Numbered from the stretch's first letter, positions 44,275 to 58,481 are shown. The stretch is 58,481 nucleotides of DNA from a virus (IMGVR_UViG_3300034004_000010:1-58481); one strand, 5' to 3'. The notes: generated by a model not told the origin, from the letters alone. Program-made: numbers and translations.

Positions 44275-45078
44275 CTAGTCGATGTCCATCGGCTCTGTCG
44301 TCACCACCACCCGCCGCGTCGTCCCCACCGTCCGCAGCGTCCACAGCGACCCCGGGTGCACGACCCGCACCGTGTGGAGCCCGCCGCCGAGACGCACCAT
44401 CCCCGACGCGTACCCGCTCGAGCGGGTCACGAGGGTCCGCGCCACGACCCAGCGGCCCTTGCGCAGCACCTGCACCTGCACGGGCGACCAGGGGGAGGGG
44501 ACCCACCCGCAGGACGGCACGAACTCGTTCAAGGGAGCTGCGACGAACAGGACGCCGCCGCCCTGGTTGAACCAGGCGCCCTTGGCGAACGCTGTCCGGT
44601 GCTTCACCGGCGGGTGCGGCACAGGGTCAGGCTCGGGGCTCTCGATCGCAGGGACGGCGGACGCCGACGACCACGTCTTCCCTGCTGTGGCGGCCGACGC
44701 CGCGGGGGAGAACCCCACCGACAGCGCCCCCAGCCCCACAACCAGCGCCAGGGCCATAGCGCCGGCCGCAAGGACCCGCATCCGCTGCGCCCAGAACCCG
44801 GCCAGCGACGACGCCATCTCCGCGACGCCCCGGCTGGCGCCGTCGGCCATCACGTCGGCGAGGAGCCGCAGCGAACCGAACGCCTCCGCGGCCTCGTCGA
44901 GGTCGGCGACGTCGATGACGTTGACCGACGGGAGGCCGGGCAGGTCGATGGTCCCGACGGCGCGGTAACCGCGGGGACGGAAGTCCTTCTCGCGGTGCTT
45001 CGGCAGGGTCGGCAGTTCAGTGGAGCGGCGCGCGTCGTCGTTGCCGCTGGACGCGGGCGTGGCAAGGTGCTTCGACAT
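44275..45078 (-). CDS. Membrane-anchored exported protein (267 aa)
   Basis: Cytoplasmic N-terminal 100 residues (with NVIDVADLDEAAEAFGSLRL), a membrane helix at about 103-124 (LAAGAMALALVVGLGALSVG), then an extracellular domain with a lone Cys (SCGWVPSPWSPVQVQVLRKG) and an RYxS-like beta end. AGGAGG ribosome site before the ATG. Isolated by terminators on both sides, so it has its own promoter in 45079-45270. No family recognised; a surface or superinfection-exclusion role is an inference from topology and position. Confidence 0.65.
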   Translation of the reverse strand: MSKHLATPASSGNDDARRSTELPTLPKHREKDFRPRGYRAVGTIDLPGLPSVNVIDVADLDEAAEAFGSLRLLADVMADGASRGVAEMASSLAGFWAQRMRVLAAGAMALALVVGLGALSVGFSPAASAATAGKTWSSASAVPAIESPEPDPVPHPPVKHRTAFAKGAWFNQGGGVLFVAAPLNEFVPSCGWVPSPWSPVQVQVLRKGRWVVARTLVTRSSGYASGMVRLGGGLHTVRVVHPGSLWTLRTVGTTRRVVVTTEPMDID

Positions 45079-45320
45079 CAGGGCCTCCTAGTGGCTCTGA
45101 TCGGGGGCCTGTCCGTTGAGTGTTGATCCGCTTGGTGTTACCAGCACCTTGCGGGGAGCTCCGGACGGGCCCTTGAGGTTGTGTACCTACCTCATCGGCG
45201 CCTGAGGCCAGGACTTGAGCGGTCCCTGGCACGTATCGTCGTTGCTGCCCCCGTCCCCCCGTCGGGGAGCCGGTGGCGCGGCGCTCGAGGAAGCAGTCCT
45301 CGCGCCGCGCCACCACAACC
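45079..45320. other. Intergenic region: promoter space plus terminator
   Basis: Leader of the leftward 44275-45078 gene. A dyad GAGGT...ACCTC occurs at 45174-45192 around a GTGTAC centre and may be an operator. No clear -35/-10 pair seen. The right part is a strong hairpin listed separately. Confidence 0.4.
45272..45314 (-). terminator. Terminator of the integrase operon
   Basis: GGTGGCGCGGCGC (45272-45284) pairs perfectly with GCGCCGCGCCACC (45302-45314), and inner GAGGA/TCCTC arms extend the stem. It lies 7 bp after the stop of the last leftward gene at 45321. Confidence 0.8.
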
Positions 45321-45602
45321 TCAGCCGTCCCAGCTCAGTCGATAGTCGGGATGGTCGCGGTAGGGCTGGGCGAGCGCGCGGATCGCGACCAGGATGCCGG
45401 TGGCGTGGTAGCCGATGACTTCACCGCCGGGCAGGGCGCCCTGCTCGCGACGCAGATGGTAGGCGTCCAGGACGGCCCGCTTCGCCTCGACCTCGGCCAA
45501 GAGCCGCGCGGGCCAGCCGTAAGCGAGACCCAGCCCTGCATCGGCGCGGATGGCCCGCTCGTCCTCATCCAGCCGGCCGCGCAGGAACTCGGTCAGGTCC
45601 AC
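45321..45602 (-). CDS. DUF6221-like small protein (93 aa)
   Basis: The pattern LTEFLRGRLDEDERAIRA, a middle ARLLAEVEAKRAVLDAYHLR and an end ALAQPYRDHPDYRLSW matches the actinobacterial DUF6221 family (function unknown), often found on actinobacterial chromosomes, plasmids and phages. GTG at 45602 has GGAGG 7 bp upstream and overlaps the preceding stop; upstream in-frame sequence is not coding. Confidence 0.72.
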   Translation of the reverse strand: MDLTEFLRGRLDEDERAIRADAGLGLAYGWPARLLAEVEAKRAVLDAYHLRREQGALPGGEVIGYHATGILVAIRALAQPYRDHPDYRLSWDG

Positions 45603-45865
45603 GTCACTGCCTCCACCATCTCGGGGGCATCCCACGTCGTCCCCAGCTTCGCCGCGAGCCACACCAGCCCCGGCATGTCCAACTCCGGCCCCGCCAACCC
45701 CTCACACTCCACACACGGCGTCGGATGCCCCCACTCCGCCACCAGCACCTGGCACGGCAGCCCACGACGCGGCAGGCTTTCCGCCGGCGGGTTGCACAGG
45801 ACGCCGCTGTTACGGCGCCCGCAGTGCGGGCAGGCGGGCGGCGCGGGGGAGGGGGCGTCAGTCAT
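45593..45865 (-). CDS. Zinc-ribbon small protein (90 aa)
   Basis: Cys pairs CPHC and CVEC with additional Cys (VLCNPP and LPCQVL) predict a zinc-stabilised fold in the N-terminal 55 residues. The C-terminal part is helical with WLAAKLG. ATG at 45865 overlaps the preceding gene's end. Similar to small actinobacterial proteins beginning 'CPxCGR'; function unknown. Confidence 0.6.
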   Translation of the reverse strand: MTDAPSPAPPACPHCGRRNSGVLCNPPAESLPRRGLPCQVLVAEWGHPTPCVECEGLAGPELDMPGLVWLAAKLGTTWDAPEMVEAVTWT

Positions 45866-46064
45866 GGCGTATCGCCGATCGCAGCACTCGGACTCCTCGC
45901 GCCCGAGCCCGAGCCGTTGGGTACAACTCCACGTAGTGCAGTAGCTCGTCGGCAGCTTCGCGCAGAGTCGCCCCGACGTAGTGCCCTCGCCGTCCGACCC
46001 ATCGGCCGGCAACGACGACGACGGCGTCGCCGCGTTCGATGGGGTGAGAGGCAAGGTCAGCCAC
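45858..46064 (-). CDS. Small beta-rich protein (68 aa)
   Basis: Strand pattern ERGDAVVVVAGRWVGRRGHY (SH3-like) with a basic C-terminal helix. GTG 46064 follows a GAGG site and overlaps the stop of the zinc-finger gene upstream. No family recognised. Confidence 0.5.
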   Translation of the reverse strand: MADLASHPIERGDAVVVVAGRWVGRRGHYVGATLREAADELLHYVELYPTARARARGVRVLRSAIRHD

Positions 46065-46212
46065 CGGAGCGCACCTCGCTGGATGGGCACGCGAGCATAC
46101 CGTCGTCGTGCCACCACATCGAGCGGTCGTCTTTGCGGCGGAGGCGACCCCCGCAACATGCGCAGGACGCCTCGTGCTCGCTGATGCGTTCACCGGGGAT
46201 GGCGACGCCCAT
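46057..46212 (-). CDS. Small CxxC/C zinc-binding protein (51 aa)
   Basis: A short frame with a GGGAGG site, encoding ISEHEASCACCGGRLRRKDD and, further on, HDDGMLACPSS, which supplies Cys and His ligands for one zinc site. Overlaps the next gene's GTG at its end, so the cluster is co-translated. Confidence 0.5.
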   Translation of the reverse strand: MGVAIPGERISEHEASCACCGGRLRRKDDRSMWWHDDGMLACPSSEVRSGG

Positions 46213-46249
46213 CACGCCAGCCTCCCGCGCGGCACCGACACATGCGCCG

Positions 46250-46582
46250 TCACGGCCCGATCCTCAGGTTGGCCAACGCCTGGTCGTCTAGCCACACACG
46301 TACGGGGGCCCGCTCCATGTCGTGCAGCACGGCCTGCATCCGCGCCGCATCCTCCGCCGCCGCCCGCTCCGCCCCCTCCAGCGTCCGGCCGACAACGCCC
46401 CGCAGGCGGTCCTCGACCATCCGCTCCGGCATCTGCAACGCCCGCAACTCGGCACGCACCTCCTCGAGCAGCGGCGCCCACGAATCCACGTACGCCTTGA
46501 ACGCCGCGCTCGACACGTAGTAGCGGAAGCTCGCTGGCCGCAGCCGCACGACATCCGCGACCAGATCCGCCACGTCGGTCAC
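46250..46582 (-). CDS. Hypothetical helical protein (110 aa)
   Basis: GTG overlaps the preceding stop. Long helices with heptad spacing (FKAYVDSWAPLLEEVRAELR, MQAVLHDMERAP). No family recognised; lies in the overlapping leftward cluster downstream of the tyrosine integrase. Confidence 0.5.
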   Translation of the reverse strand: MTDVADLVADVVRLRPASFRYYVSSAAFKAYVDSWAPLLEEVRAELRALQMPERMVEDRLRGVVGRTLEGAERAAAEDAARMQAVLHDMERAPVRVWLDDQALANLRIGP

Positions 46583-47001
46583 GACGCCACCTCAGCGGGC
46601 AGTGCGGGGACCTTCAGCAGGTCCAGTGCGACGCCCAACGCCCGGGCCAGCTTCTCCGCCTGCATCACGACGGCGAGGAAGCCCGGCGGGCAAGTGCCGC
46701 AGTCCTCGCCGTTGCGGATCTGCTCCAGCAGTCGCTCCTTCGTCCCGGCGCACTTGTCCAACGTCTCCGCGATCTCCCATCGGACCGTCTCGGCGGTGTC
46801 GCAGTCGACCGCGGCGGCAAGGGTGGTGAACTCCGCGTCCGCCGGGGCGGGAGGCATGACCGCGTCCAGCACGCGGATCGCGGCCTGGTAGGCGGTCAGG
46901 TTGACCTCGCCCGTGGACGGGTCGACGTACTTGGCAAGGGCCGCGCAGCCCACGTCATACATCTCGTCTGACACGGCCGGGGGGACAGTGTTGGTCCTCA
47001 T
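46579..47001 (-). CDS. Hypothetical protein (140 aa)
   Basis: ATG 47001 has GAGAGG upstream. Mostly helical with a C-x2-C-type motif (EDCGTCPPGF) and CDTAE, CAGTK cysteines. First gene downstream of the integrase gap. Function unknown. Confidence 0.5.
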   Translation of the reverse strand: MRTNTVPPAVSDEMYDVGCAALAKYVDPSTGEVNLTAYQAAIRVLDAVMPPAPADAEFTTLAAAVDCDTAETVRWEIAETLDKCAGTKERLLEQIRNGEDCGTCPPGFLAVVMQAEKLARALGVALDLLKVPALPAEVAS

Positions 47002-47052
47002 GTCGCTACCTCTCGTGAGTGGACGTGTACTGACGGTCAGGTCCCCCGAGTC

Positions 47053-47090
47053 GATCTCGCGCTGCAAGTGCATAAGATCCGTGCGAGATC
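47053..47090. repeat. Inverted repeat at the 3' end of the tyrosine integrase
   Basis: GATCTCGC (47053-47060) and GCGAGATC (47083-47090) form an 8-bp dyad whose right arm overlaps the integrase stop. It may be a terminator hairpin or an arm/core element of a tyrosine-integrase attP, which often lies beside int. No tRNA-like core is visible. Confidence 0.35.
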
Positions 47091-48171
47091 AGAGGCCGAG
47101 CTTCGTGGCCGCGTTGTGCTTCCACACGCCGGCCTCTTCGCGGTAGCCGCGCATCACGTTCGGCGACTTCCACCCGCCCTGCTGCATGATGTCCATCTCG
47201 GACACCTCCTGCGCGTACGCCTCGGTGGCGAACCCGCGGCGGCCGGAGTGCCCACCCCAGTCCCCGGCGAGGCCAGCGGCAGCGGCGCGGCGCTTCACGA
47301 CCTCCGCGACGTCGCGGCCATCCAGCCTGCGCGGCTGGCCCCCGAGGGCCTTGAGGTTGCCCCACTGGTCCATCGACGGGAACGCGGGCCCCTCCGTGAC
47401 GCCGTAGACCTTGAGCCACGCCAGCCACGACCTCACAGGGCACGTGGCCATGTGTGAGCCGTAGGGGAGACCCTTCGTCTTCCCCTCGCCGGTCTGGTCC
47501 GTTTTCGACCGGCCCAGGACCACCTCGAGCCCGTCCTCGACGACGGTGAAGTCGGTGATGTCGAGGGCGGCGACCTCGGAGCGGCGGAACGCTCCGGAGA
47601 ACAGGACCAGCAGCAGCGCCCGATCCCGAACGTCGAGCGGGTCGCTGGCGAACGTGGCGAGGATGCGGCGAAGGTCCTTGGTCCGCATGGCCTTCTTCTT
47701 GCGCTTGCGCCTACCAGCGTCGGCCTGCGCCTTGCGGATGCCGGTGAGGACGGACACCACCTGCTCGGCCCACACGATCTGCCTGTGGGCGGTGACGCCG
47801 GCGTGGGCGTAGCCGACGCTGATGCTGGACAGCTTCTTCGTCAGCGTGGACGCCGCCAGCCCGGGCCGGTCGCCGTTCGGCTCGGCGAGGGCGGTGAGGT
47901 AGAGGCGGATCGTCTCGGACACGTACTGCGCGGGGGTCGCGCCCTCGCTGGTGGCGTCGTCCGGGCTGGGGAACACGGTTCGGGCGTGCTTGCCGCACCA
48001 CTCGACGTACAGCTTCCAGTCCGTCTCGTACACCCGCCACGTTGACGCCTTGCGCGAGTTGTCGGCGTGCTCGTCGGCCTTCGCCTTGAGCTCGGCGAGG
48101 ATCAGGGCGGCGTCGGGGCGGACGGGGGAGAGGGTGACCGGGGACGCCGTGGCGAGGTCGGTGGAGGTCAT
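47089..48171 (-). CDS. Tyrosine recombinase/integrase
   Basis: 360-aa site-specific recombinase. N-terminal SAM-like core-binding domain (about 35-150), then a basic linker (RRKRKKK) and the catalytic domain with Arg197 (AFRRSEV), Lys223 (GRSKTDQ), His308-x2-Arg311 (GGHSGRRGFATE), Trp334 (GGWKSP) and nucleophile Tyr343 (VMRGY). All catalytic positions are intact. It is the second integrase in this genome and lies within the plasmid-like leftward arm. It could integrate that arm, act as a resolvase for multimers or provide an alternative attachment system. ATG overlaps the upstream stop. Confidence 0.93.
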   Translation of the reverse strand: MTSTDLATASPVTLSPVRPDAALILAELKAKADEHADNSRKASTWRVYETDWKLYVEWCGKHARTVFPSPDDATSEGATPAQYVSETIRLYLTALAEPNGDRPGLAASTLTKKLSSISVGYAHAGVTAHRQIVWAEQVVSVLTGIRKAQADAGRRKRKKKAMRTKDLRRILATFASDPLDVRDRALLLVLFSGAFRRSEVAALDITDFTVVEDGLEVVLGRSKTDQTGEGKTKGLPYGSHMATCPVRSWLAWLKVYGVTEGPAFPSMDQWGNLKALGGQPRRLDGRDVAEVVKRRAAAAGLAGDWGGHSGRRGFATEAYAQEVSEMDIMQQGGWKSPNVMRGYREEAGVWKHNAATKLGL

Positions 48172-48419
48172 GGCGCCAGCCTCGGCAGGCCGTCGGGTCC
48201 GAGGTCGAGCGGCCTGTCGGAGAACTCAACGTCTCGCTCACGGATCAGGCGCCACAGCCATAGCGCGTCATCGTGCGCGACATGCGCTCCGGCGGTCGGT
48301 TGGACGATCAGGCGCGTGGGCTGCCCGTCTCCATCGACAACGGCGTCGACCCTGACGCCCCAGGCCGTCCGAGCCGGACTCCCGTGATCGGGGTCGCAAT
48401 GAGGGCAGGTGCTGGTCAT
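48168..48419 (-). CDS. Small protein with N-terminal CPHC motif (83 aa)
   Basis: Starts TSTCPHCDPDHG, a likely metal-binding turn, followed by a beta region and a helix with WLWRLIRERDVEF. ATGA overlaps at both ends, directly before the tyrosine integrase; such a small partner could be a directionality factor, though no HTH is seen. Confidence 0.5.
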   Translation of the reverse strand: MTSTCPHCDPDHGSPARTAWGVRVDAVVDGDGQPTRLIVQPTAGAHVAHDDALWLWRLIRERDVEFSDRPLDLGPDGLPRLAP

Positions 48420-48649
48420 CGCGCGATGTGCTCGATGCGGCCGGGGTGGATCCACATGGGGGTGGCGGCGCCATCCCAGAGGACGTAAACGGAGGCGCAC
48501 CACAGAGGCGGGCTCTGAACAGTCCCAGTCGTGCAGTCACCGAAGAAGGCGGTCCAGACGCGCTGACCGGGTTGGAAGGCGTCGGTGGGCAGGCAGTCGG
48601 CGATGCCAGTGCTGCCGTCATCGTGCGTGACGAAGCGGAGGGCGGTCAT
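48416..48649 (-). CDS. Small beta-rich protein (77 aa)
   Basis: Predicted SH3-like beta barrel (RVWTAFFGDCTTGTVQSPPL, VYVLWDGAATPMWIHPGRIE). ATG at 48649 overlaps the previous gene's stop. Function unknown. Confidence 0.5.
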   Translation of the reverse strand: MTALRFVTHDDGSTGIADCLPTDAFQPGQRVWTAFFGDCTTGTVQSPPLWCASVYVLWDGAATPMWIHPGRIEHIAR

Positions 48650-48825
48650 GACTGCCGCCCCAGGCGGCAAGCCCGCTCAGCCCAGTCGACGACGCGAGCG
48701 GCTATGAAGAACGCGGGGCGCAGAGGTAGTTCCAGCCGGGTGCCTCGTGCAGCCATCTCGGAACGGTCGAGAGCGGAGTCGACGGCGTACTCGATCCGCT
48801 GGGCGACAGTGGGAGTCTCGCTCAC
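48646..48825 (-). CDS. Small helical protein (59 aa), first gene of integrase operon
   Basis: GTG 48825 has a GGAG site 7 bp upstream. The sequence VSETPTVAQRIEYAVDSALD then an amphipathic helix with RPAFFIAARVVDWAERACR. Its stop overlaps the next ATG. It is directly downstream of a promoter with a palindromic operator. Confidence 0.5.
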   Translation of the reverse strand: MSETPTVAQRIEYAVDSALDRSEMAARGTRLELPLRPAFFIAARVVDWAERACRLGRQS

Positions 48826-48879
48826 GGTGTGTCTCCTGTCGGTGGCGTTCAGTGACTGGCGTTCCTGCTGGTCCCCGCT

Positions 48880-48907
48880 ATCTTACCACTGAGAATGGAA
48901 TATTCTC
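48880..48907 (-). promoter_or_regulatory. Extended -10 promoter with 17-bp palindromic operator
   Basis: On the minus strand an extended -10 (TGG-TAAGAT, 48888-48880) is preceded by a perfect-arm palindrome GAGAAT-n5-ATTCTC (48891-48907) over the -35 position. This AT-rich island is unusual for the region. It should drive the integrase operon and be repressible. Confidence 0.5.
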
Positions 48908-48921
48908 GGGGGTTAGCAAGA

Positions 48922-49125
48922 TCAGCAGACGGACGTGACGACGCCCCGGATCGACGGCTCCACCACGACCGCACCCCAACGCCACTCCGCGCGGAACGCT
49001 CGCTCCCGCGCCGCGAGGTCGCGGTCCTGCTCACACAGGAGCGCCAGCACGGCGCGCACCTCCTCGGCTGCGACCTCGTCGCCAGCCTTGGCCTTGCGGA
49101 TCAGATCCAGCAGGATCGCGCTCAC
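48922..49125 (-). CDS. Small helical protein (67 aa)
   Basis: GTG with AAGGAG 7 bp upstream. Helical, heptad-like (LIRKAKAGDEVAAEEVRAVL, then a CEQDRDLAARER segment). A CGAAAC-gcta-GTTTCG hairpin (49144-49159) lies just upstream of its ribosome site. Last gene before the integrase operon promoter. Function unknown. Confidence 0.5.
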   Translation of the reverse strand: MSAILLDLIRKAKAGDEVAAEEVRAVLALLCEQDRDLAARERAFRAEWRWGAVVVEPSIRGVVTSVC

Positions 49126-49173
49126 GTCAGGTCTCCTTGATCACGAAACGCTAGTTTCGGGCGGTCGGTGGTG

Positions 49174-49434
49174 TCAGAACATGGCGAGAACGTCGGGCGC
49201 CTCGCCTGCACCGGCCCCCTGGCACTGCGCACGTAGCGCCCCGCGATGCAGGTACTCATGCGGCCCGTGATCCCCGCTCTCGCCGCACTCCTGCGGCCGG
49301 TAGTGCGTGGCGAGCATGTTCCCGGCCACGAGCATCCGGTACACGGCGTCGGCGCGGCGCTCAGTGCCCAACTCGGCACTGTCCTCCAGGGCCTTCTGGA
49401 TGACCGCCTTCACGTACTCCTCTGGCCGACTCAC
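49174..49434 (-). CDS. Hypothetical protein (86 aa)
   Basis: GTG overlaps the stop of the Cys-rich mini-gene upstream. Helical N-terminus (EEYVKAVIQKALEDSAELGT) with two Cys (ECGES, AQCQG) near the end. Function unknown. Confidence 0.5.
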   Translation of the reverse strand: MSRPEEYVKAVIQKALEDSAELGTERRADAVYRMLVAGNMLATHYRPQECGESGDHGPHEYLHRGALRAQCQGAGAGEAPDVLAMF

Positions 49435-49547
49435 GCGAGTCGCCCGGGGTCGAGGACTCCGCCGTCGCAGCGGCATCCGCCGTGCGTCCCGCAGTCGCCG
49501 CAGCATCGCGGGTCGGTGTGGCAGTCGTGGGTCTCGGTCTGGCTCAC
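49431..49547 (-). CDS. Cys-rich microprotein (38 aa)
   Basis: Starts at GTG 49547 with a perfect AGGAGG site. HDCHTDPRCCGDCGTHGGCR contains five Cys and three His in 20 residues, sufficient for a small zinc knuckle. Its start overlaps the upstream stop and its stop overlaps the downstream GTG, strongly supporting translation. Confidence 0.55.
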   Translation of the reverse strand: MSQTETHDCHTDPRCCGDCGTHGGCRCDGGVLDPGRLA

Positions 49548-49759
49548 GTCGTCCTCCTGTCGTCGGCCCGCTCGGCGGGCACTCTCTCCGTCGGTGTCTC
49601 GCACGGCGTGTCCGTGGACTTCCGCACCAAGTCCAGGGCGTGGCGTATCGCCTCCAGGTACCCCTGGAGGTACGGCCCGTCTACCGCAGCCTTGGCCTCG
49701 GCGGCGTGCTCGTTGAGGTGCTCAAGTTGGGCGATGATGCGGGCCTGGATGTCGCTCAC
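49544..49759 (-). CDS. Small helical protein (71 aa)
   Basis: GTG 49759 follows GGCGGAG. Coiled-coil-like helix (IQARIIAQLEHLNEHAAEAK) and a second helix (LQGYLEAIRHALDLVRK). Overlaps neighbours by 4 bp at both ends. Unknown function. Confidence 0.5.
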   Translation of the reverse strand: MSDIQARIIAQLEHLNEHAAEAKAAVDGPYLQGYLEAIRHALDLVRKSTDTPCETPTERVPAERADDRRTT

Positions 49760-49938
49760 GCGCTCTCCGCCCTCTCGTCGTCCCCTACTGACGCCAGCAG
49801 CCCCGCCTCGGCGAGCATGTCGGCCTGGTGCTCGGGGTGGTCGCACAGGCAGATGGCGCGGACCCCGGCCTGGTCGCCGGCGCGGACCCGGGCGAGGGCG
49901 TGGTCAGCGAGGACCAGGGCCGCCGGGCGGGCGGTCAC
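49756..49938 (-). CDS. Small protein with CLC-x-H motif (60 aa)
   Basis: Helical, with ICLCDHPEHQADMLAEAGLL. GTG 49938 is 4 bp after GGGGAGG and overlaps the preceding gene's stop. Function unknown. Confidence 0.45.
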   Translation of the reverse strand: MTARPAALVLADHALARVRAGDQAGVRAICLCDHPEHQADMLAEAGLLASVGDDERAESA

Positions 49939-50159
49939 ACATCCTCCCCAGCGTCGAGCTGCCGCTGCGTCCACCACGTCATCGCGTGGCCGTGACAGCA
50001 CGTCGGCCAGCCGATAGCCATGTAGCGGCCGAGAGGCTTCTCCTCCCGCCTGCACGTAGCGCAGCGCAGGACGCCGCCGAACCTGCTGACGACGTCGCCG
50101 CCGATGCGTTCAGGCAGAGTTGAGAGTTGCGCCGCTCGGACTGCCAGGTTCTCGCTCAT
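49935..50159 (-). CDS. Small zinc-binding protein (74 aa)
   Basis: ATG 50159 with GGGGAGGA upstream. CATC ... CCHGH pattern (LRCATCRREEKP, then PTCCHGHAMTWW) predicts a zinc knuckle in the C-terminal half. Part of the overlapped cluster downstream of the DUF2637-like gene. Confidence 0.5.
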   Translation of the reverse strand: MSENLAVRAAQLSTLPERIGGDVVSRFGGVLRCATCRREEKPLGRYMAIGWPTCCHGHAMTWWTQRQLDAGEDV

Positions 50160-50275
50160 TCGTCCTCCCCGATCTCGTCTCGTGCGCGGTCCAGGCACAG
50201 GCAGCCGTCGGGATGCGGCCGGGCGTAGTCGGCGCGGCGGGCCGCAGCCCACTCCTCACGCTCCCAGGTGGTCAT
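50156..50275 (-). CDS. Microprotein (39 aa)
   Basis: ATG 50275 with CCGAGGAG site; TTWEREEWAAARRADYARPH then GCLCLDRARDE. Two Cys separated by one residue. Stop overlaps the next ATG (ATGA), supporting it as a real coupled gene. Confidence 0.45.
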   Translation of the reverse strand: MTTWEREEWAAARRADYARPHPDGCLCLDRARDEIGEDE

Positions 50276-50290
50276 GTCTACTCCTCGGGA

Positions 50291-50401
50291 CTAGCGGCGC
50301 GATCGGTGTACGCACCGGTCGACGTGGATGTCGTAGGCCATGCGATTGCGGAACGACGAGGCGCAGTACTCGCAGCGCCACACGTAGATCCGTCGCCTCA
50401 T
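50291..50401 (-). CDS. Mini zinc finger, C-x2-C-x12-H-x3-C (36 aa)
   Basis: Almost the whole protein is one finger: C-E-Y-C, twelve residues, His, three residues, Cys. Spacing is identical to the finger encoded at 56554-56718. AGAGGAGG site before ATG 50401. Such single-finger proteins are commonly DNA- or protein-binding. Confidence 0.6.
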   Translation of the reverse strand: MRRRIYVWRCEYCASSFRNRMAYDIHVDRCVHRSRR

Positions 50402-50412
50402 GCCGTCCTCCT

Positions 50413-51252
50413 CTACTGTCCGCCTGCGACGACGCGCAGGGTCGGGTTCTTGGCGGCACGGATGGCGTCCTTGACGCGGCCGGTGTTGCCGACGGACCAC
50501 CCGGCGTCCTTGATGGCGGTCGTGACGGTGGTGTACCCAGCGTCGGGACTGTCGGCGAGGGCGGCGCGGATGATGCGGTCGAGCTCGGTGTCGGGCACCG
50601 TCACAGGCGGGGGCGGACTCTGCCGGCCCTTGAGTGCAGCGATGGCGTCCGCGACGGCCTTGGCGCGGAGCGCTTCCTGCTCAGCGAGAACAGCCGCGAC
50701 GGCGGCATCGACGGCGCGGTGCGTCTCATCCTCGGCCTGGCGCAGGCGCTCGACGGCTTCGTCGAGCGCCGCCTGCAGTTCCGCAGTCCCATCCGTTGTC
50801 GTCTCTGCCTGGGCCGTGTCTGTGGCACCCTCCCCGGCGAGGTGCCACAGCAGGGACGCCGCGCCGAGAACCAGCACCGGCAGGCAGGACACGGCCACCA
50901 CCACCCACGGCGGAGCGGACGCGATCCCCCCCGCCGCCATCAGGTGGTACGCGGCCTGCCCGAACATGCCAAGGGCCAGAGCCGCCCCGCTCGAGGCCCA
51001 TGCGAACCCACGGGCCCGATCAGTGAGGCGCTCCGAGCTGGTGGCGACATAGAGGGCGTAGATGGCGTACGCCTCCACGCCGATCGGCAGCGTGATCGCT
51101 GTGTTCAGGGCGACGTTGTCGGCGATGCCAGGGAACGGCTTCACGACACCGAACCCCGTGAGGGAGCCGAGGCCCACCCACCCCGACCACGTGGACGCAC
51201 CTGCCGCCGCGCCGATGACGATCAGCGGCCACCTCTTGCGCGCGGGACTCAT
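50413..51252 (-). CDS. DUF2637-like four-helix membrane protein
   Basis: 279 aa. The first 130 residues hold four membrane segments (WPLIVIGAAAGASTWSGWVG; LNTAITLPIGVEAYAIYALY; GFAWASSGAALALGMFG; WVVVAVSCLPVLVLGAASLL). This pattern is typical of the DUF2637 proteins found on Streptomyces plasmids and integrative elements next to tra genes. A cytoplasmic coiled coil (about 155-225) and a basic C-terminal winged-helix-like region (YTTVTTAIKDAGWSVGNTGR) follow. Its ATG overlaps the FtsK/TraB-like stop, so the two are co-translated and probably act together at the membrane. Confidence 0.75.
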   Translation of the reverse strand: MSPARKRWPLIVIGAAAGASTWSGWVGLGSLTGFGVVKPFPGIADNVALNTAITLPIGVEAYAIYALYVATSSERLTDRARGFAWASSGAALALGMFGQAAYHLMAAGGIASAPPWVVVAVSCLPVLVLGAASLLWHLAGEGATDTAQAETTTDGTAELQAALDEAVERLRQAEDETHRAVDAAVAAVLAEQEALRAKAVADAIAALKGRQSPPPPVTVPDTELDRIIRAALADSPDAGYTTVTTAIKDAGWSVGNTGRVKDAIRAAKNPTLRVVAGGQ

Positions 51253-53231
51253 GCCGCCGCCACCGTCCAGCCGGGCTCGCCCTTTGGGGTGGTCGCACGC
51301 TTCACGGCCTTGCCCTCCATCTCCTTGAGCAGCCCACTGACATAGGTGGGGTTCTGTCCGATCCTGTCGGCAATCTCCCCGCGAGTGAGTGCGTGACCCG
51401 CCGTGCGCAGCACATCGGGGATGAGTTCGCGGGCCGTGCGCCCCCCGCTCTGGGGGGGGACGAGGGCGAGGCGGCGGGGCTCCTCGACGTGAACGCCGGC
51501 AGCGACCTCGACGACCTCGCGGATCGGCTCCGCGGCTGGTGCGGCCTCGGGCTCGGCGTCCATGAACTCCGGCAGCCACCGCGCCACGATCGCCTCGTCG
51601 TCCGGGTGCAGCTTCGCCACCCGCGTCTCCGCCAGCCAGTCCTCCACCGTTCCGTGCGGCGCGGCGAAGTCCATGAACTCCAGCTCATCGCGGGTCGGCA
51701 GCATCCTCGCCCGCATCGGCACCAGCGGCACCGCATGCAGGGACGACTTGATGAACCACCAGCCAGCGGCAGCGGGCAGCCTCGTGGGGTCCACGTCGAA
51801 CCCCTGGGTGGCGTCCCTGGCGGCCTGGGCGTCGGCGTACCGGCCGATGTAGACGGTGCCGTTGCCGCGCAGGTCGTTACGGAACGCCGTGGAACCGAGG
51901 GACTCCCCGTCGCCCTTCTGGGTGTTCAGGATGAGGTTGCAGCCGAAGCTGGCGCCCTGGGAGGCGATGTCCTCGAGCTTGCCGATGACGGCCCGCCCCC
52001 AGACCTTGTTCATCTTCCGCATCTCGTCGATCATCGTGGCGAACAGGGGGTCCTGGTAGCCGTCGACCACTGCGTCCGGGTGGTAGAAGTTGCGCCCCGC
52101 CCGCCCGTACCTGCCGGCGCGGGCGGAGAACACCTCGTGGGACATCTCGACCACGCACCGCCACTGGTCGCGGGTCCACCCGTACACGTCAGCGCCGGCG
52201 CGCAGCTCGGGGACGCCGGCGCCGCCCTCGTGCTCGCCCTTGCAGTCAGCGATGGCGAGGAACGCCTGATCCCAGCGGGCCAGGGCCACGCCGAACTGGC
52301 GCATCACGATGCCCTTGCCGTGACGCGACGGCGCCAGGATGACGGCGTGCGCGGCGCCTGAGGGGCCACGGAGCGCGGCGAGAGCAGCACGCCCGTCGGC
52401 GGAGTCGGCGGACTCGAACGCGCCCCGCTCGGACACGTTCCCGTCGGACCAGTACCGCACCACGGACGCGTCGTGCCGGTCGGTGACGGCCACGAGGAAG
52501 TCGTTCGCGTCGCCCTCGGGGTCCGGGGAGATGGACACGGTCCCGCGGGGGCGGCACAGCAGCCGGCACGCCCGTTCCGATGCGCCTTCCACGCCGTCGT
52601 CGCCGTCGATGGGTGCGCGGAGGTGGAACCTGTCGGTGGCGGGGTCGTGGCGGAGCTCGGTGAGGGCGAGGGGCCCGGCCTTGGGGTGCTGGGCGACCTC
52701 CCACTCCCACTGCTCCACCAGCGGGTGGGCCTGGATGGGTTCGGGGCGGTCGTCGCGGAGCATCCACGCGCGGCCCTTCCAGAACGGCCACAGGGCGCCG
52801 ACGGTGACGGCGACCCAGAGGGCGGCCTGGACGCGCCAGTCGATGTCGGGGGTGGCGTCGAGCCACACCTGCCAGGCGGCGGCGGCAGCGCAGGCGCGGC
52901 GCAGGCGGGTCTGCTCGAGCGCGCTGATCCACCGCTTCGGTTCGCGCCACAGGTCGAACGCGAACCCCAGCGCCAGCCACACCCACGGCGTCCACCACGA
53001 CACGTAGCAGGCGGTGGCAGCGAAGTAGACGGGCCGCAGGTGGTAGCGGTAGCGGCCACGGGCGGTCTGGTTGCCCAGCCAGTACAGGGTCATCCCGGTG
53101 AGGGTGACGCCCTGGACGAGGGGCTTGAGGGTGGCGGTCCAGAACAGGAACCGCAGGACGGCGACGCCGGGGGCGCGGCCGGGCGGGGCGGGGGCGGGAG
53201 GCGCCGGGCGGGCGATCGTGACGAGCGGCAT
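51249..53231 (-). CDS. traB: FtsK/TraB-like DNA translocase
   Basis: 660 aa. N-terminal membrane segments (about 24-52, 68-92 and 133-152), then a RecA-like motor with the Walker A region APSRHGKG (300-307), Walker B ATMIDEM (398-404), an NTQKG sensor-like motif (436-440), and a C-terminal winged helix (about 595-660: ELIPDVLRTAGHALTRGEIA). This domain order equals that of actinobacterial conjugative translocases (TraB/TraSA), which move double-stranded DNA between mycelial cells and recognise clt repeats through the winged helix. The last Walker A residue is Gly rather than Ser/Thr. Virion packaging uses a separate terminase, so this is a plasmid-type function. Confidence 0.85.
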   Translation of the reverse strand: MPLVTIARPAPPAPAPPGRAPGVAVLRFLFWTATLKPLVQGVTLTGMTLYWLGNQTARGRYRYHLRPVYFAATACYVSWWTPWVWLALGFAFDLWREPKRWISALEQTRLRRACAAAAAWQVWLDATPDIDWRVQAALWVAVTVGALWPFWKGRAWMLRDDRPEPIQAHPLVEQWEWEVAQHPKAGPLALTELRHDPATDRFHLRAPIDGDDGVEGASERACRLLCRPRGTVSISPDPEGDANDFLVAVTDRHDASVVRYWSDGNVSERGAFESADSADGRAALAALRGPSGAAHAVILAPSRHGKGIVMRQFGVALARWDQAFLAIADCKGEHEGGAGVPELRAGADVYGWTRDQWRCVVEMSHEVFSARAGRYGRAGRNFYHPDAVVDGYQDPLFATMIDEMRKMNKVWGRAVIGKLEDIASQGASFGCNLILNTQKGDGESLGSTAFRNDLRGNGTVYIGRYADAQAARDATQGFDVDPTRLPAAAGWWFIKSSLHAVPLVPMRARMLPTRDELEFMDFAAPHGTVEDWLAETRVAKLHPDDEAIVARWLPEFMDAEPEAAPAAEPIREVVEVAAGVHVEEPRRLALVPPQSGGRTARELIPDVLRTAGHALTRGEIADRIGQNPTYVSGLLKEMEGKAVKRATTPKGEPGWTVAAA

Positions 53232-53241
53232 CGGTGCCTCC

Positions 53242-53276
53242 TTCAGGGGTTAGGTGAGGTTCAGGTGGGGTTCAGG
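53242..53276. repeat. TTCAGG direct repeats before the translocase gene
   Basis: TTCAGG at 53242-53247, 53260-53265 and 53271-53276, plus a degenerate TTAGG at 53250-53254, spaced about 8-11 bp in the same orientation (CCTGAA on the coding strand). The first copy overlaps the ribosome site of the translocase. Candidate operator or clt-type TraB recognition repeats. Confidence 0.45.
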
Positions 53277-53284
53277 GATGGGGT

Positions 53285-53318
53285 GGCCCGCCGAGCCGGG
53301 ACGGCGGCTCGGCGGGCC
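53285..53318 (-). terminator. Terminator upstream of the translocase gene
   Basis: GGCCCGCCGAGCC (53285-53297) and GGCTCGGCGGGCC (53306-53318) form a perfect 13-bp stem with an 8-nt loop, 17 bp after the stop at 53335. It separates the upstream membrane-protein cluster from the translocase. Confidence 0.8.
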
Positions 53319-53334
53319 CGATTGCCCGGCGAGG

Positions 53335-54192
53335 TCAGTCGCCGGACAGCTCTCGAGCGAGGTCAGCGACGTGCGTCGCGTGCTCGCGCAGCGCCTCCCC
53401 GTCCCGTGCGACCGCGGTGGCGGCCTCAACGAACGCGACAACCTCGCGATTCATGTCGCCGCCGAAGTCACGGACCACGTCCTGCAGCCCCGCGCACGCC
53501 TTGATGACCTGCACGAAGTCAGAGCCGTCGCCGAGGGCACTGATCTGCTCGGCGAACCTGCGCACGGACGCCAGGTCGCCGAACTCACCACCGCCCTGCG
53601 CGGGGCCGCCGACGTCGTGCCAACGGGAAGCGCTGGCCATCCCCGCCATCCGGCGCTCGTCCTCGCGGCTCTGCCAGACCTTGTCCGCGTCGTAACCCCT
53701 GCGCAGGAGGTCCTGGCGTTCTTCGGGCGTGAGGTTGGGGGTCTCGCCGCGCCCCCTCGAGCCACGCAGCGACGCGTTCGCCGCGCGCCAGTCTGCGGCT
53801 GCCCGCTCAGGGGTGTCGGGCCCGCTCATCCCGACGAGACGCGTGGTGCTGCCCGCAGGGATGGGCGGGGGTGGGGTGCTCGTGGTCATGTTGTCCTCAT
53901 CTCGTGTCGTTTCAAGGGTGCGGGTGGGCTGGGCTTCTCCGAGCGACTTGTGGTGTTCCGCGCACTCCACGCAGAGCCGGACCTGGGTCCAGTCCTTGTA
54001 GGTGATGTCGACGGTGGCCGGCTGCCAGCAGGACCCGCACCTGCAGAGCCCTGCCCGCGGCTCGTTGGGGTCGTAATTGGCCCGCAGATGGCGACGACAG
54101 ACCAGGCGGCCTTTGATCCAGAACTCGCCGAGGATGTCGGCGCCTGACGCGCAGTCCTGGCACCAGCCGAACTCCTCGGCATGCCTGTGCAT
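53335..54192 (-). CDS. Zinc-finger protein with helical C-terminal domain (285 aa)
   Basis: N-terminal 90 residues carry several Cys pairs (WCQDC, RLVCRRH, CRCGSC, LCVECAEHH), probably two zinc sites. A disordered Thr/Pro linker follows, then a helical domain whose end (VRRFAEQISALGDGSDF, then FVEAATAVARDGEALREHA) is homologous to the C-terminus of the adjacent 54198-55163 protein. An internal ATG at 53886 with GAGGA upstream could also produce the second part alone. Unknown function; possible transfer or spread accessory protein. Confidence 0.6.
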   Translation of the reverse strand: MHRHAEEFGWCQDCASGADILGEFWIKGRLVCRRHLRANYDPNEPRAGLCRCGSCWQPATVDITYKDWTQVRLCVECAEHHKSLGEAQPTRTLETTRDEDNMTTSTPPPPIPAGSTTRLVGMSGPDTPERAAADWRAANASLRGSRGRGETPNLTPEERQDLLRRGYDADKVWQSREDERRMAGMASASRWHDVGGPAQGGGEFGDLASVRRFAEQISALGDGSDFVQVIKACAGLQDVVRDFGGDMNREVVAFVEAATAVARDGEALREHATHVADLARELSGD

Positions 54193-54197
54193 GACCG

Positions 54198-55163
54198 CTA
54201 GCTGCCCTGGACGGACATGGACGTCTTCGCCAGCTTGCTCGCCTGCTCCCGCAGTGAGTCCACTGCGGACGCGAACTGGCGGGCGGTCGCCTCGAGCTCG
54301 TCGACCGCCGAGTCCATCTCGGCGCCGAACCCGCCGGCGCGGGACTGCTCGCCGATCACGTGGGCCTTCGCGGCGACGACGATGAAGTCGGACGCGATGG
54401 TCAGGGCGTCGATCTGCTGGGCGAAGTCCTGGACGGCGGTGTGGGTGCGCAGCTCGGTGGGGACAGGCATGGGTGCTCCGTTCGTCGGGGTAGGTGCAGT
54501 GCGGCCTGCCGGGCTGGTTCCGGCTGGCGGGTCCATGGGTGTGGGGAACGGCCAGTCCCCTGCGAAGCGGTTGCCGTCCTGGTCGATGGGGCCGGTGTAC
54601 CCGCCGTGCCGCAGGGTCCAGAAGCGGCGCTCCTTGTCCGTCAGGGGGGCGGGGTGCATGGCGTTCCACTCGGGCGTCCAGCGGTCCCGAATGGACGCCT
54701 CACTGTCGAGCTGCGGACTGTCCTCGACCGCCGGGGACACCTGTCCCGGGGGGGTGTCCTGGCCCTGTGCCTGCGGGGTGTCCTGCCTGTCCTCGCCGGG
54801 TGTCCCAGCGGCTGTCCTGGCCTTGTAGGCCTCCTTGGCCTGGCGCCACGCGGAGGCTGTCCCGGCGGCACCCACTGCACCTGCCAGGCCCACCGCCTTC
54901 GCGGTCTTCCCCGCAGCGAGGACAGCTCGCCCCGCCTTGCGCTGGGACAGCTTCTTGCTCACGGCGCCGGGCTGTACCGATCTGGCCCACCGCTGGCTGG
55001 CCCCAGCCTTGAACCCGCCCGGGACAGCCTTCGCGCCCGCACCGAGGCCACCCGCGACCCGGCCTGTCCTGGCCTTCGCGGGACCATCCGGGACAAGCTT
55101 CCAGGCGTACCGCCCAGCGACGATCAGGCAGAACAGGACCACGCAGGCCCGGACCAGTCCCAT
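54198..55163 (-). CDS. Membrane-anchored protein with shared C-terminal domain (321 aa)
   Basis: N-terminal membrane helix (VRACVVLFCLIVAGRYAW), a basic Ala/Gly-rich region, a Gln/Pro/Asp-rich disordered stretch, and a C-terminal helical domain (VQDFAQQIDALTIASDF) paralogous to that of the next gene. A WTLRHGGYTGPIDQDGNRFA segment sits between. Start ATG 55163 overlaps the upstream stop (TGATG). Resembles plasmid spread or conjugation accessory proteins in organisation, not by a recognised family. Confidence 0.6.
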   Translation of the reverse strand: MGLVRACVVLFCLIVAGRYAWKLVPDGPAKARTGRVAGGLGAGAKAVPGGFKAGASQRWARSVQPGAVSKKLSQRKAGRAVLAAGKTAKAVGLAGAVGAAGTASAWRQAKEAYKARTAAGTPGEDRQDTPQAQGQDTPPGQVSPAVEDSPQLDSEASIRDRWTPEWNAMHPAPLTDKERRFWTLRHGGYTGPIDQDGNRFAGDWPFPTPMDPPAGTSPAGRTAPTPTNGAPMPVPTELRTHTAVQDFAQQIDALTIASDFIVVAAKAHVIGEQSRAGGFGAEMDSAVDELEATARQFASAVDSLREQASKLAKTSMSVQGS

Positions 55164-55612
55164 CACCCGAACCACCCGCTCGTCTGCTGCCGGGCCGGCT
55201 CACTGATCTGGTTCACGACGTGGCTGACGTTGCGGCCGAACTTCCCCGGGATCGCGCCCTGGGCCAACGCCGAGGGCAGGACCAGCAGGACAAGGACCAC
55301 CGGGACCGCGACCGACGACCCAGGGGCCAGGTTCTGCGGCAGGACAGCCTCGACCGCGAGGAACAGTCCCACGACCAGTCCCACGGCGATCGCCAGCCGC
55401 AGCCATGGGTTCAACCCGATGACGTACCCGATGAACCGGTACAGCGCCGTGGCGGTCGCCCAGTATCCGGCGACCAACGCCAGGACAGCCGCGACCAGCC
55501 CGACGATCGACATGATGACGCCCTGCCTGTTGCCGAAGTTCAGCCGCCCCGCGAGGGTCAGCAGCCCGACGGCGACAGCGGTCAGGAGCGCCGCGTACGT
55601 GTATGCCCTCAC
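55163..55612 (-). CDS. Polytopic membrane protein (149 aa)
   Basis: Four predicted membrane segments (AALLTAVAVGLLTLAG; MSIVGLVAAVLALVAGYW; WLRLAIAVGLVVGLFLAVEA; SSVAVPVVLVLLVLPSALA), with a hydrophilic C-terminus. GTG 55612 with GGAAGG site. Similar multi-span small proteins (Spd-type) accompany tra genes on actinobacterial plasmids, but sequence identity was not recognised. Confidence 0.6.
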   Translation of the reverse strand: MRAYTYAALLTAVAVGLLTLAGRLNFGNRQGVIMSIVGLVAAVLALVAGYWATATALYRFIGYVIGLNPWLRLAIAVGLVVGLFLAVEAVLPQNLAPGSSVAVPVVLVLLVLPSALAQGAIPGKFGRNVSHVVNQISEPARQQTSGWFG

Positions 55613-55655
55613 GGGCTCGCCTTCCTTTCTGTGGTGGGTGCAGTGGGTCGGGATG

Positions 55656-55757
55656 GGTGTCAGGGGGGGGGTGTCAGGTCCTGACGGTGTTCGTGCTCCG
55701 CCTCGCGCGCCCACGCACGTAGGGAGCCACCCCCTGACACCTGACGGACCCCCTGAC
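55656..55757. repeat. Cluster of six CCTGAC repeats (origin/operator candidate)
   Basis: In the 152-bp non-coding gap, CCTGAC occurs at 55680-55685, 55733-55738, 55740-55745 and 55752-55757 on the plus strand and as its complement GTCAGG within 55656-55664 and 55670-55678. Three copies extend to CCTGACACC, producing a large inverted repeat GGTGTCAGGGGG/CCCCCTGACACC. No other gap in the window is so repetitive. Likely a protein-binding control, origin or clt-like site. Confidence 0.55.
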
Positions 55758-55764
55758 TGTGCGG

Positions 55765-55968
55765 CTACTGGGGGCGGTGCTCGATCCAGCCGGCGTAGGC
55801 GTCCCACGCGTCGATCCGGTACCGCGTCCAATCCCCCAGACCGCGTGCCTTCACCTCGTTGCGCAGGACCAGCAGGCAGGCGAGTCGGTCGCGGGGCTTC
55901 ACGTCGCGGCTGACCTCGCCGCGGACGAGTCCCATCGCGTCTTCCTCTACGAGCCGCAGCCTGGTCAT
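55765..55968 (-). CDS. Small basic protein (67 aa)
   Basis: ATG overlaps the preceding stop (ATGA). Two helices and a C-terminal YRIDAWDAYAGWIEHRP segment. Last gene before the CCTGAC repeat cluster. Function unknown. Confidence 0.5.
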   Translation of the reverse strand: MTRLRLVEEDAMGLVRGEVSRDVKPRDRLACLLVLRNEVKARGLGDWTRYRIDAWDAYAGWIEHRPQ

Positions 55969-56279
55969 GCAGCCTTCCGCTCCCCCGCCTCAATGGCGGC
56001 GACCTCGGCGCGGTCCCGCTCCCTGGCGACCCGGACTCGCTCGGGAGAGAACACGTCCACGTTCGGCGGGAGGTCGTACCGGTAGCTGCGCCGGATCGCG
56101 GGACCTACGGCGACGACGAGGATGAGCGCGAGGGCGACGGCCCCGCCGTAGACGGCACCGATGAACCCCCATGAGACGCCACCGAATCGGGCGACCGCGA
56201 AGGGGCCGAGGACGACAGGCGCGGCGAGGACGAGGTTCCAGCGGGTGGCCCAGGACAGGCTCGCCAGGTGCGCGATCAC
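55965..56279 (-). CDS. Two-span membrane protein (104 aa)
   Basis: Hydrophobic segments WNLVLAAPVVLGPFAVARFG and GFIGAVYGGAVALALILVVA, then a charged cytoplasmic helix (SPERVRVARERDRAEVAAIE). Fits a small membrane component of a transfer or surface apparatus. GTGA overlap with the WhiB gene upstream. Confidence 0.55.
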   Translation of the reverse strand: MIAHLASLSWATRWNLVLAAPVVLGPFAVARFGGVSWGFIGAVYGGAVALALILVVAVGPAIRRSYRYDLPPNVDVFSPERVRVARERDRAEVAAIEAGERKAA

Positions 56280-56557
56280 GCCGCCACCTGGCCTCGGTCG
56301 GCCCGGCGCCGCTGTCGGCGGATGGCCTGCCGCTCCTCATCGGAGGTCGCCCCCCAGATACCCCACTCGAACCGCTCGACGGCGTACTGCAGGCACTGCT
56401 CCATGACGGGGCAGCGACGGCAGACGGCCTTGGCGGCGAGGGTGTTGCCGCCCTTGTCGGGGAACCACTCGTCTCCGCCGACCTGCGCGCAGAGCCCGCG
56501 GGTCATCCACTCGGCGCCGTCGAGGTCGAGGTCGGCGAGGGAGTCGAGGCCGATCAC
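56276..56557 (-). CDS. WhiB-family transcription factor (93 aa)
   Basis: Full canonical Wbl protein: Cys23, Cys46, Cys49 and Cys55 ligand an iron-sulfur cluster, the GIWG turn is at 66-69 and a basic C-terminal tail (RRQRRR) binds DNA. It is the second WhiB in this genome and differs strongly from the longer early-operon one. Located in the plasmid-like operon; probably regulates that arm or host development genes. Confidence 0.9.
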   Translation of the reverse strand: MIGLDSLADLDLDGAEWMTRGLCAQVGGDEWFPDKGGNTLAAKAVCRRCPVMEQCLQYAVERFEWGIWGATSDEERQAIRRQRRRADRGQVAA

Positions 56558-56718
56558 GACGCTCTCCGCATGCAGGAGGAGCGGTGGCTACGGAGCTGGA
56601 AGTGTGACGGGAAGACTTGCGGGCAGAAGCCGCAGGGCCAGCCTGCCGAACCGCCACGCGGAGTGGGCTTGGCGGGCTTGGGAAGCTTGCTGCGACCCGG
56701 AACGCGACGGTCGATCAC
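56554..56718 (-). CDS. Mini zinc finger, C-x2-C-x12-H-x3-C (54 aa)
   Basis: Basic Pro/Lys-rich N-terminus (VPGRSKLPKPAKPTPRGG) followed by C-G-F-C, twelve residues, His, three residues, Cys. Spacing equals that of the 50291-50401 product. GTG start overlaps the upstream stop. Likely nucleic-acid binding. Confidence 0.6.
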   Translation of the reverse strand: MIDRRVPGRSKLPKPAKPTPRGGSAGWPCGFCPQVFPSHFQLRSHRSSCMRRAS

Positions 56719-56978
56719 GACACACCCGCCCTGTCTGCGGCCTCGTCGGCGCGAAGGTCGCTGCGGGCGCCGTCGAGGGGGCCCGTGACGGTCCAGGCGG
56801 CGGCGCAGAGCGTCAGCGACGCCACCAGGAAGCTGATGTCGCCGGTGGCGACCATCGCAGCGAAGGATGCGACTGCGGCGGCCAGGGCAAGGCCGTAGGC
56901 ACCCCACAGGAAGCGGACGATGCGCCGCATCTCGGCGGGAGTGGGGTCCGGCAGGTCGGCGCTGTAGACGCTGGTCAT
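56715..56978 (-). CDS. Two-span membrane protein (87 aa)
   Basis: Cytoplasmic N-terminal helix (TPAEMRRIVRFLW), two hydrophobic segments (GAYGLALAAAVASFAAMVAT and FLVASLTLCAAAWTV) and an acidic/basic tail. ATG overlaps the previous stop. Confidence 0.55.
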   Translation of the reverse strand: MTSVYSADLPDPTPAEMRRIVRFLWGAYGLALAAAVASFAAMVATGDISFLVASLTLCAAAWTVTGPLDGARSDLRADEAADRAGVS

Positions 56979-57142
56979 GAGGTGCCTCCCCGGGTGATGA
57001 CGAGTGCGGTGACGCCGACCCCGGCCAGGACCATCACGACCACGGCGGGGACGTACAGGACGCCCTTGCTGCTAGCGGTGGTGACGGCGATGAGCAGGGA
57101 CGCGGCGAACAGGACGCCGAGCTGGGCACGCAGGTGCTTCAT
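56975..57142 (-). CDS. Two-span membrane microprotein (55 aa)
   Basis: Short basic start (MKHLRAQLG) then two hydrophobic helices (VLFAASLLIAVTTAS and YVPAVVVMVLAGVGVTALVI). ATG overlaps the HTH gene's stop (TGATG). Probably co-inserted with the neighbouring membrane proteins. Confidence 0.55.
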   Translation of the reverse strand: MKHLRAQLGVLFAASLLIAVTTASSKGVLYVPAVVVMVLAGVGVTALVITRGGTS

Positions 57143-57348
57143 CACGCCACCTGCTCCTTCTGCTCGCCCTGGCGGACGTAGGCGTCGATGGCGGCCCAGC
57201 TGGTGCGGACGCCGGACTTGCCGAGGGGGATCCGCGGCAGGGTGCCGTCGGTCATGAACTTGCGGATCTGGTCTTCGCTGCAGGCGAGGGCGACGGCCGC
57301 CTCGCTGACGCGGGCCAGGCGTGGCGCCTGGATAACTGCCTCGGTCAC
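57142..57348 (-). CDS. Excisionase/MerR-like helix-turn-helix protein (68 aa)
   Basis: Winged-helix fold of the excisionase/AlpA type: RVSEAAVALACSEDQIRKFM recognition region followed by DGTLPRIPLGKSGVRTSWAA (the wing) and a terminal DAYVRQGEQ helix. GTG 57348 was chosen for its AGGAGG site; the frame remains open upstream into the operator. First gene of the leftward plasmid-like operon, divergent from the GntR-type gene. Candidate directionality factor or operon regulator. Confidence 0.7.
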   Translation of the reverse strand: MTEAVIQAPRLARVSEAAVALACSEDQIRKFMTDGTLPRIPLGKSGVRTSWAAIDAYVRQGEQKEQVA

Positions 57349-57367
57349 ATCGCCTCCTGTCATACGC

Positions 57368-57403
57368 TGTCGTGTGGTGCCGTATGCGTACGGTAGCACG
57401 ACA
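57368..57403. promoter_or_regulatory. 36-bp dyad operator between divergent regulators
   Basis: TGTCGTG (57368-57374) and CCGTA (57380-57384) are mirrored by TACGG (57389-57393) and CACGACA (57397-57403). Overlapping -10-like hexamers in both directions (TACGGT at 57389-57394 rightwards, TACCGT leftwards) sit at the centre, so one bound dimer would block both divergent promoters. Confidence 0.55.
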
Positions 57404-57477
57404 CGTTGGGCGGTGCGCAAGTCCTATCGCTGGCGGGTCGGGCACACTGAGCGCATGCGCACGAACGGTCACGCCGG

Positions 57478-57783
57478 GTGAGCCCGCCGGAGAAGTGGCG
57501 ACAGGTCTACGAAGACCTCGCCGCCGGGATCCGCAGCGGCCAGTACGCGCCCGGCGAGGCACTGCCCGGGGTCATCCGCATCCAGGCGCAGTGGACCGTG
57601 TCCAACTCCACTGCCGTCCGGGCGTTGCGTGAGCTGGTTGCGTCAGGGTTGGCCGTCTCGGTCGCCGGCCGCGGGACCTACGCGGCGCAGGACTTGCCGG
57701 GTGAGGACGCAGCGCCCTCCCTTGCTGACCGCGTGGCCGAGCTCGAGCGGCGCATGGACGCCCATGAGCAGGGGCACGCCTAG
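57478..57783 (+). CDS. GntR-family transcriptional regulator (short, 101 aa)
   Basis: N-terminal GntR winged helix: VYEDLAAGIRSGQYAPGEAL, then STAVRALRELVASGLAVSVA and GRGTY, followed by a short coiled coil (DRVAELERRMDAHEQ) instead of an effector domain. GntR regulators such as KorSA control transfer genes on actinobacterial elements. Divergent from the leftward operon across the 36-bp dyad, its likely binding site. The GTG overlaps the stop of an 8-codon frame starting at ATG 57455, so coupling is possible. Confidence 0.8.
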   Translation: MSPPEKWRQVYEDLAAGIRSGQYAPGEALPGVIRIQAQWTVSNSTAVRALRELVASGLAVSVAGRGTYAAQDLPGEDAAPSLADRVAELERRMDAHEQGHA

Positions 57784-58379: not shown

Positions 58380-58481
58380 GGGACGCGGCGGGGATCGGGT
58401 GGACTGGGGATGGGGATGACTGGGACCAGATCGCCCGTTCGGTCGACCAGGGTGGCTTGACACCCTGTCATGACACCCTCT
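58380..58481. repeat. Right copy of 102-bp terminal direct repeat
   Basis: Identical to 19-120. Together with continuous gene layout across the join it indicates a circular or circularly permuted molecule. It carries the -35 and operator palindromes of the promoter for the gene at 133, whose -10 lies just past the end of the repeat at the left end. Confidence 0.85.

Follow-up and report, generated by a model that had tools for sequence, protein, structure and literature searches.

Can a virus that builds its own tailed particle also carry the machinery to move its DNA directly between cells? The question is raised by the IMG/VR record IMGVR_UViG_3300034004_000010 (58,481 bases; "the window" below, meaning this whole stretch), in which a siphovirus cassette shares one molecule with an arm at 44275–57783 encoding a DNA translocase of the TraB/FtsK class. 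We consider that the window probably represents a new, deeply divergent temperate actinobacterial siphophage with a plasmid-type maintenance and transfer arm, that is, a phage-plasmid like pZL12 of Streptomyces. Support comes from the circularity of the molecule, its virion genes, a TraB profile match, the distribution of a tyrosine recombinase, three genes shared with pZL12 and the occurrence of the same union of genes elsewhere. The features central to this argument are as follows.

17123–44008, plus strand: siphovirus packaging, head, tail and lysis cassette, from the large terminase to an SNase-like gene (PHROG).
782–2170, minus strand: phage-type serine integrase, 462 aa (PHROG_95, E = 7e-78).
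47089–48171, minus strand: plasmid-type tyrosine recombinase, 360 aa (PF00589, E = 6.9e-14).
48168–48419, minus strand: 83-aa protein common to pZL12 (gp087; 65% over 55 aa, E = 1.7e-17).
51249–53231, minus strand: highly divergent TraB/FtsK-class DNA translocase, 660 aa (TraB profile, hhalign).

The molecule is one closed circle of about 58,361 bp. The last 102 bases of the record are identical to bases 19–120, an overlap hidden by a poly-G run (1–20); the 18 bases that precede it, TT followed by poly-G, are probably a sequencing or assembly artefact. Because the record closes into a circle, the arm borders the phage body on either side. The tetranucleotide composition of the arm is ordinary for the molecule and no direct repeats longer than 12 bp were found at its ends, which argues against a chimera and also against a recently inserted actinomycete integrative and conjugative element (AICE). 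A chimeric join, which the original prediction had named as a threat to its own reading, is therefore unlikely. The thought that phage and plasmid sequences were fused during assembly starts from the source of the window, a publicly assembled viral record that begins with a poly-G artefact, but the same union of genes is found in sequenced isolates, and we regard this explanation as extremely improbable; it was rejected on the circle closure, the uniform composition and the paired TGACACC elements (described below) that arm and body share.

The predicted gene set for packaging, head, tail and lysis is complete, as had been claimed from a first reading of the circular molecule. The PHROG matches include the large terminase (E = 2e-74), portal (2e-84), protease (7e-64), major head protein (3e-55) and tape measure (5e-88), and further families were matched for head closure/connector, major tail, Dit/minor tail, endolysin and holin. 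The nearest named relatives of the body are Streptomyces phages SF1, SF3 and VWB (terminase identity 50–53%) and, among sequenced isolates, a Streptomyces hoynatensis prophage (62%). In its left region the body encodes an exonuclease, an HTH repressor-like protein and a second WhiB, besides replication genes of phage type (initiator and DnaB helicase) and the serine integrase; two thirds of the integrase align at 46% identity with those of Microbacterium phages. The molecule holds two site-specific recombinases of different classes, the phage-type serine enzyme at 782–2170 and the plasmid-type tyrosine enzyme at 47089–48171.

The tyrosine recombinase has the distribution of a plasmid protein. 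Matches were found in 909 plasmid records (in 277 cases covering 80% or more of the protein), as against three of 50,697 phage records, among which the two full-length matches are both pZL12 (31% over 367 aa with gp36). Two small genes also match pZL12, the gp87 homologue inside the arm and a gp69 homologue just beyond it. On this distribution and these matches the arm resembles a plasmid backbone, whereas the virion cassette resembles SF1 and VWB, and the best reading of the sequence relationships is that an SF1/VWB-like cassette and a pZL12-like arm come from different lineages. Tyrosine recombinases of this kind can resolve plasmid multimers, as does MrpA of SCP2 (PMC3218068).

The presence of two recombinase classes, together with arm genes oriented opposite to the virion genes, could also be explained if a separate integrative element of the AICE type were nested as a passenger in a phage genome. 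At the arm ends, however, there is no direct repeat longer than 12 bp; the recombinase lies inside the arm, with its own ends up against the neighbouring genes, and the composition of the arm is like that of the rest. The definition of an AICE moreover includes a RepSA, RepAM or Prim-Pol replication protein (PMC3218068), and none was recognised among the genes searched. Lacking both att repeats and a Rep gene, the nested AICE was rejected, and we consider it improbable.

The translocase itself is an outlier. No Pfam or NCBIfam model matches it, tblastn returned zero matches in 50,697 phages and 72,556 plasmids, and scans of IMG/VR and GTDB gave no close relative. A class-wide search with the translocase produced mostly noise, with two useful TraB relatives (L111 and L117); so that the argument would not be circular, the decisive profile was built without these or the translocase itself. 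That independent profile, of 11 actinobacterial TraB proteins, matches the window at 51888–52403 with E = 2.4e-13. Comparison by hhalign with the TraB family gave 93% over residues 216–448 (at most 1.7% in 40 shuffles), rising to 97% with a wider TraB set, and profiles of chromosomal FtsK and of terminases did not match. When the profile was restricted to six plasmid TraB proteins, the score was only 15 bits, the best of 500 shuffles reaching 12.5 bits; the relationship is thus distant, and the claim of homology rests on the wider profile. From these comparisons the predicted motor domain is homologous, at a distance, to TraB within the FtsK/HerA class. A Walker B motif (LFATMIDE) is present, followed by a Q motif (TQKGDGE). 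In a tree of 18 motors the window groups with pZL12 and a plasmid-like TraB, a placement to be taken cautiously because the branches are long, and the labels phage and plasmid have to switch at least twice.

The original prediction had described this protein as a motor flanked by N-terminal membrane helices and a C-terminal winged helix. The motor is borne out by the profile; the two ends are plausible predictions. The highest 19-residue hydropathy is 1.24, so that the membrane helices are weak, and the winged helix is suggested by the sequence pattern and by an HHH-beta-beta arrangement in a single-sequence AlphaFold model of very low confidence (mean pLDDT 36.7). A DUF2637-type partner, co-translated with the translocase, had likewise been proposed for the following gene.

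50413–51252, minus strand: membrane protein co-translated with the translocase (hydropathy up to 2.55).

The two genes overlap by 4 bp (ATGA, 51249–51252) and the product is a membrane protein, in agreement with the proposal. Its identity as DUF2637/SpdB was rejected: there is no Pfam match, and hhalign gave 3%, which is the level of shuffles. Genuine DUF2637 genes (in pPaSha2, S. hoynatensis and L170) stand upstream of TraB, not downstream.

Several observations weigh against a working transfer arm. The Walker A sequence, APSRHGKG, departs from the canonical GxxxxGK[ST] in having Gly in place of the usual Ser/Thr after the Lys, so ATPase activity is not assured. To this are added the weak membrane helices, the lack of a recognised DUF2637 protein beside the translocase, and the failure to recognise ParA/ParB or RepSA among the genes searched. 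FtsK-like translocases are also encoded in 89 records of Streptomyces phages (about 120–134 kb long among the records listed), and such phages may use the motor otherwise; the gene alone is therefore no proof of conjugation. The statement that arm genes of this kind are the content of plasmids and not of phages was, on this count, too strong.

A different account would make the FtsK-like gene a part of the phage with no role in DNA transfer between cells; its product would segregate prophage DNA to spores or daughter cells or act during host takeover, the arm being an accessory region. The 89 phage records, the degenerate Walker A and the unconfirmed DUF2637 partner (50413–51252) fit it, as does phage Tomas, in which tRNA genes surround the FtsK-like gene and no further transfer gene is near. 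Among phages related to the window, however, the translocase gene is rare and not ubiquitous: in a search of 46 records, the only confident TraB among IMG/VR records with related terminases was that of the S. hoynatensis prophage, and there was none in SF1, SF3 or VWB. The window translocase is also accompanied, as on plasmids, by a plasmid-type recombinase, a GntR protein and small membrane proteins, and in the motor tree, long branches notwithstanding, it falls with pZL12 and a plasmid-like TraB and not with the Tomas gene. We hold this account possible but doubtful, and continue with the phage-plasmid reading.

The putative regulatory features are the following.

55650–55760, non-coding: repeat array 5' of the translocase operon.
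58458–58478 (= 97–117), plus strand: second TGACACCC pair, overlapping a promoter-like sequence (TTGACA-N17-TAGTGT) before the gene at 133.
57478–57783, plus strand: protein with a GntR DNA-binding domain, 101 aa, without an effector domain (PF00392, E = 7e-14).
56276–56557, minus strand: WhiB regulator (PF02467, E = 1.9e-17).
57142–57348, minus strand: excisionase-like HTH protein (HTH_17, E = 0.039, below the cut-off).

The array comprises a tandem 14-nt repeat ending GGTGTCAG, a repeated ACCCCCTGAC and a 15-nt inverted repeat built on TGACACC. Close same-strand TGACACC pairs occur twice in the molecule (in the array and at 58458–58478) and not once in 60 shuffles; one pair lies in the arm and the other at a promoter beyond the opposite arm end. 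A passage in PMC3583192 gives TGACACC as the repeat bound by TraA in the cis-acting transfer site (clt) of pWTY27, and the same account places a 14-bp direct repeat in the clt-like site of pSVH1. The array is thus a candidate operator or clt. Because each pair is located at a promoter or the beginning of an operon, a clt is no more likely than an operator bound by a shared regulator. Pfam matches bear out the GntR, WhiB and tyrosine recombinase first noticed in the arm, whereas the match of the supposed excisionase is weak. WhiB is no plasmid marker here: another such gene, at 8039–8590, belongs to the left region, and homologues occur in VWB and the S. hoynatensis prophage. This second gene also has a homologue in pSLE1.

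DNA transfer by the motor is likely, and a sequence of events may be proposed. During the prophage stage the element would be able to remain extrachromosomal, the tyrosine recombinase resolving its multimers, while the GntR protein and other regulators would repress the operon through the array at 55650–55760. Once expressed, the motor would assemble a membrane-anchored ring that drives the double-stranded DNA of the element across septa or points of cell contact, so that it enters adjacent cells or compartments of the hypha; induction would lead, alternatively, to packaging and lysis.

The remaining genes of the arm are these.

55163–55612, minus strand: membrane protein of 149 aa with several helices, encoded by the gene that opens the translocase operon (gene call, sequence).
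54198–55175, minus strand: 325-aa protein with an N-terminal hydrophobic helix, an Ala/Gly-rich middle and a paralogous C-terminal part (hydropathy, paralogy).
53335–54192, minus strand: 285-aa Cys-rich protein, its C-terminal part paralogous to the next gene upstream.
44275–45078, minus strand: 267-aa protein with one central hydrophobic segment, at the arm start (gene call).
55965–56279, minus strand: small membrane protein (sequence).
56715–57145, minus strand: two small membrane proteins (sequence).

The products of 53335–54192 and 54198–55175 share a C-terminal helical part (30% over 92 aa, pairwise E = 4e-7). The 44275–45078 product has no Pfam, PHROG or NCBIfam match, and IMG/VR scans with the membrane partner, the recombinase and the 53335–54192 product found no close relatives of the arm genes. 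In the body, an NlpC/P60 peptidoglycan hydrolase domain (E = 2.7e-15) is encoded at 12524–13159, among early genes and distant from the lysis cassette. The product of 43613–44008 has a weak, below-cut-off likeness to staphylococcal nuclease and a 46% relative in a phage-like element of G273 (L153).

If the arm works, one element would leave the cell both by particle and by contact transfer, and in mycelial hosts the prophage could move across a colony and leave it alive. The recurrence of the union, in pZL12, two Pseudonocardia plasmids, elements of Streptomyces and Longimycelium and now the window, offers a testable case for the entry of TraB modules into phages more than once. More tentatively, unrelated actinophage lineages may repeatedly have gained TraB-type pumps for double-stranded DNA, using both virions and the cell-contact or hyphal transfer of a naked prophage plasmid, with the window a further, deeply divergent line having its own pump family and cis-acting repeats. 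The recurrence is also a case for surveys of phage-plasmids that take in single-protein double-stranded DNA transfer systems.

How does the window compare with known systems? The original prediction had presented a phage–conjugative hybrid. A phage joined to a plasmid-type TraB arm is what we find, while conjugative transfer is inferred and the union is not unprecedented or a category of its own. Elements of this kind are rare, and the closest precedent is pZL12 (NC_013420, 90 kb), which according to papers citing Zhong et al. transfers as a plasmid and grows as a lytic phage. Like the window it is circular with virion genes, and its FtsK/SpoIIIE protein (gp71), GntR (gp80) and tyrosine recombinase (gp36) represent gene classes also found here. 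The two have in common gp36, gp87 and gp69 homologues and a distant major head protein; pZL12 differs in possessing ParA/ParB and in its other virion genes, which are unmatched in the window. The translocases are very divergent, and the window has an additional serine integrase. Transfer of SCP2 and pZL12, as a passage in PMC3583192 has it, requires a major tra gene and two adjacent genes.

The S. hoynatensis prophage (IMG/VR 2867325999_000002) resembles the window in its terminase, tape measure and major tail genes, and carries a DUF2637–TraB pair on the same element as its virion genes. It differs in that the pair precedes the terminase, with which it shares a strand; the translocase sequence is unlike that of the window, and the tyrosine integrase of the prophage is unrelated to the window's by BLAST. 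Two circular Pseudonocardia plasmids, pPaSha2 (CP052773) and P. broussonetiae unnamed3 (NZ_CP053567), combine terminase, prohead protease and capsid with FtsK/TraB and a recombinase; they differ in having a true DUF2637 gene, other virion lineages and a TraB of the plasmid clade. Virion genes and TraB are also united in IMG/VR 2865217878 and in a Longimycelium contig. An actinomycete contig (G273:C14; L150, L153, L154) encodes a GntR, four small membrane-type proteins, TraB, a ParA-like protein and phage-like genes, and is probably another phage-plasmid.

Single parts of the window have their own counterparts. SF1, SF3 and VWB share its terminase, portal, protease and head genes and differ in being without TraB and the plasmid-type recombinase. 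Tomas and Karimac (120–134 kb) carry an FtsK-class motor on a phage, as here, although in Tomas no plasmid-type arm surrounds the gene, which lies on another branch of the tree. Lastly, TraB of pSVH1, which a passage in PMC3583192 describes as binding repeats via its C-terminal winged helix, is homologous to the window translocase in the motor region (the hhalign match with its family profile) at about 16% identity, and differs in that the Walker A of the window is degenerate and the membrane and DNA-binding ends do not align.

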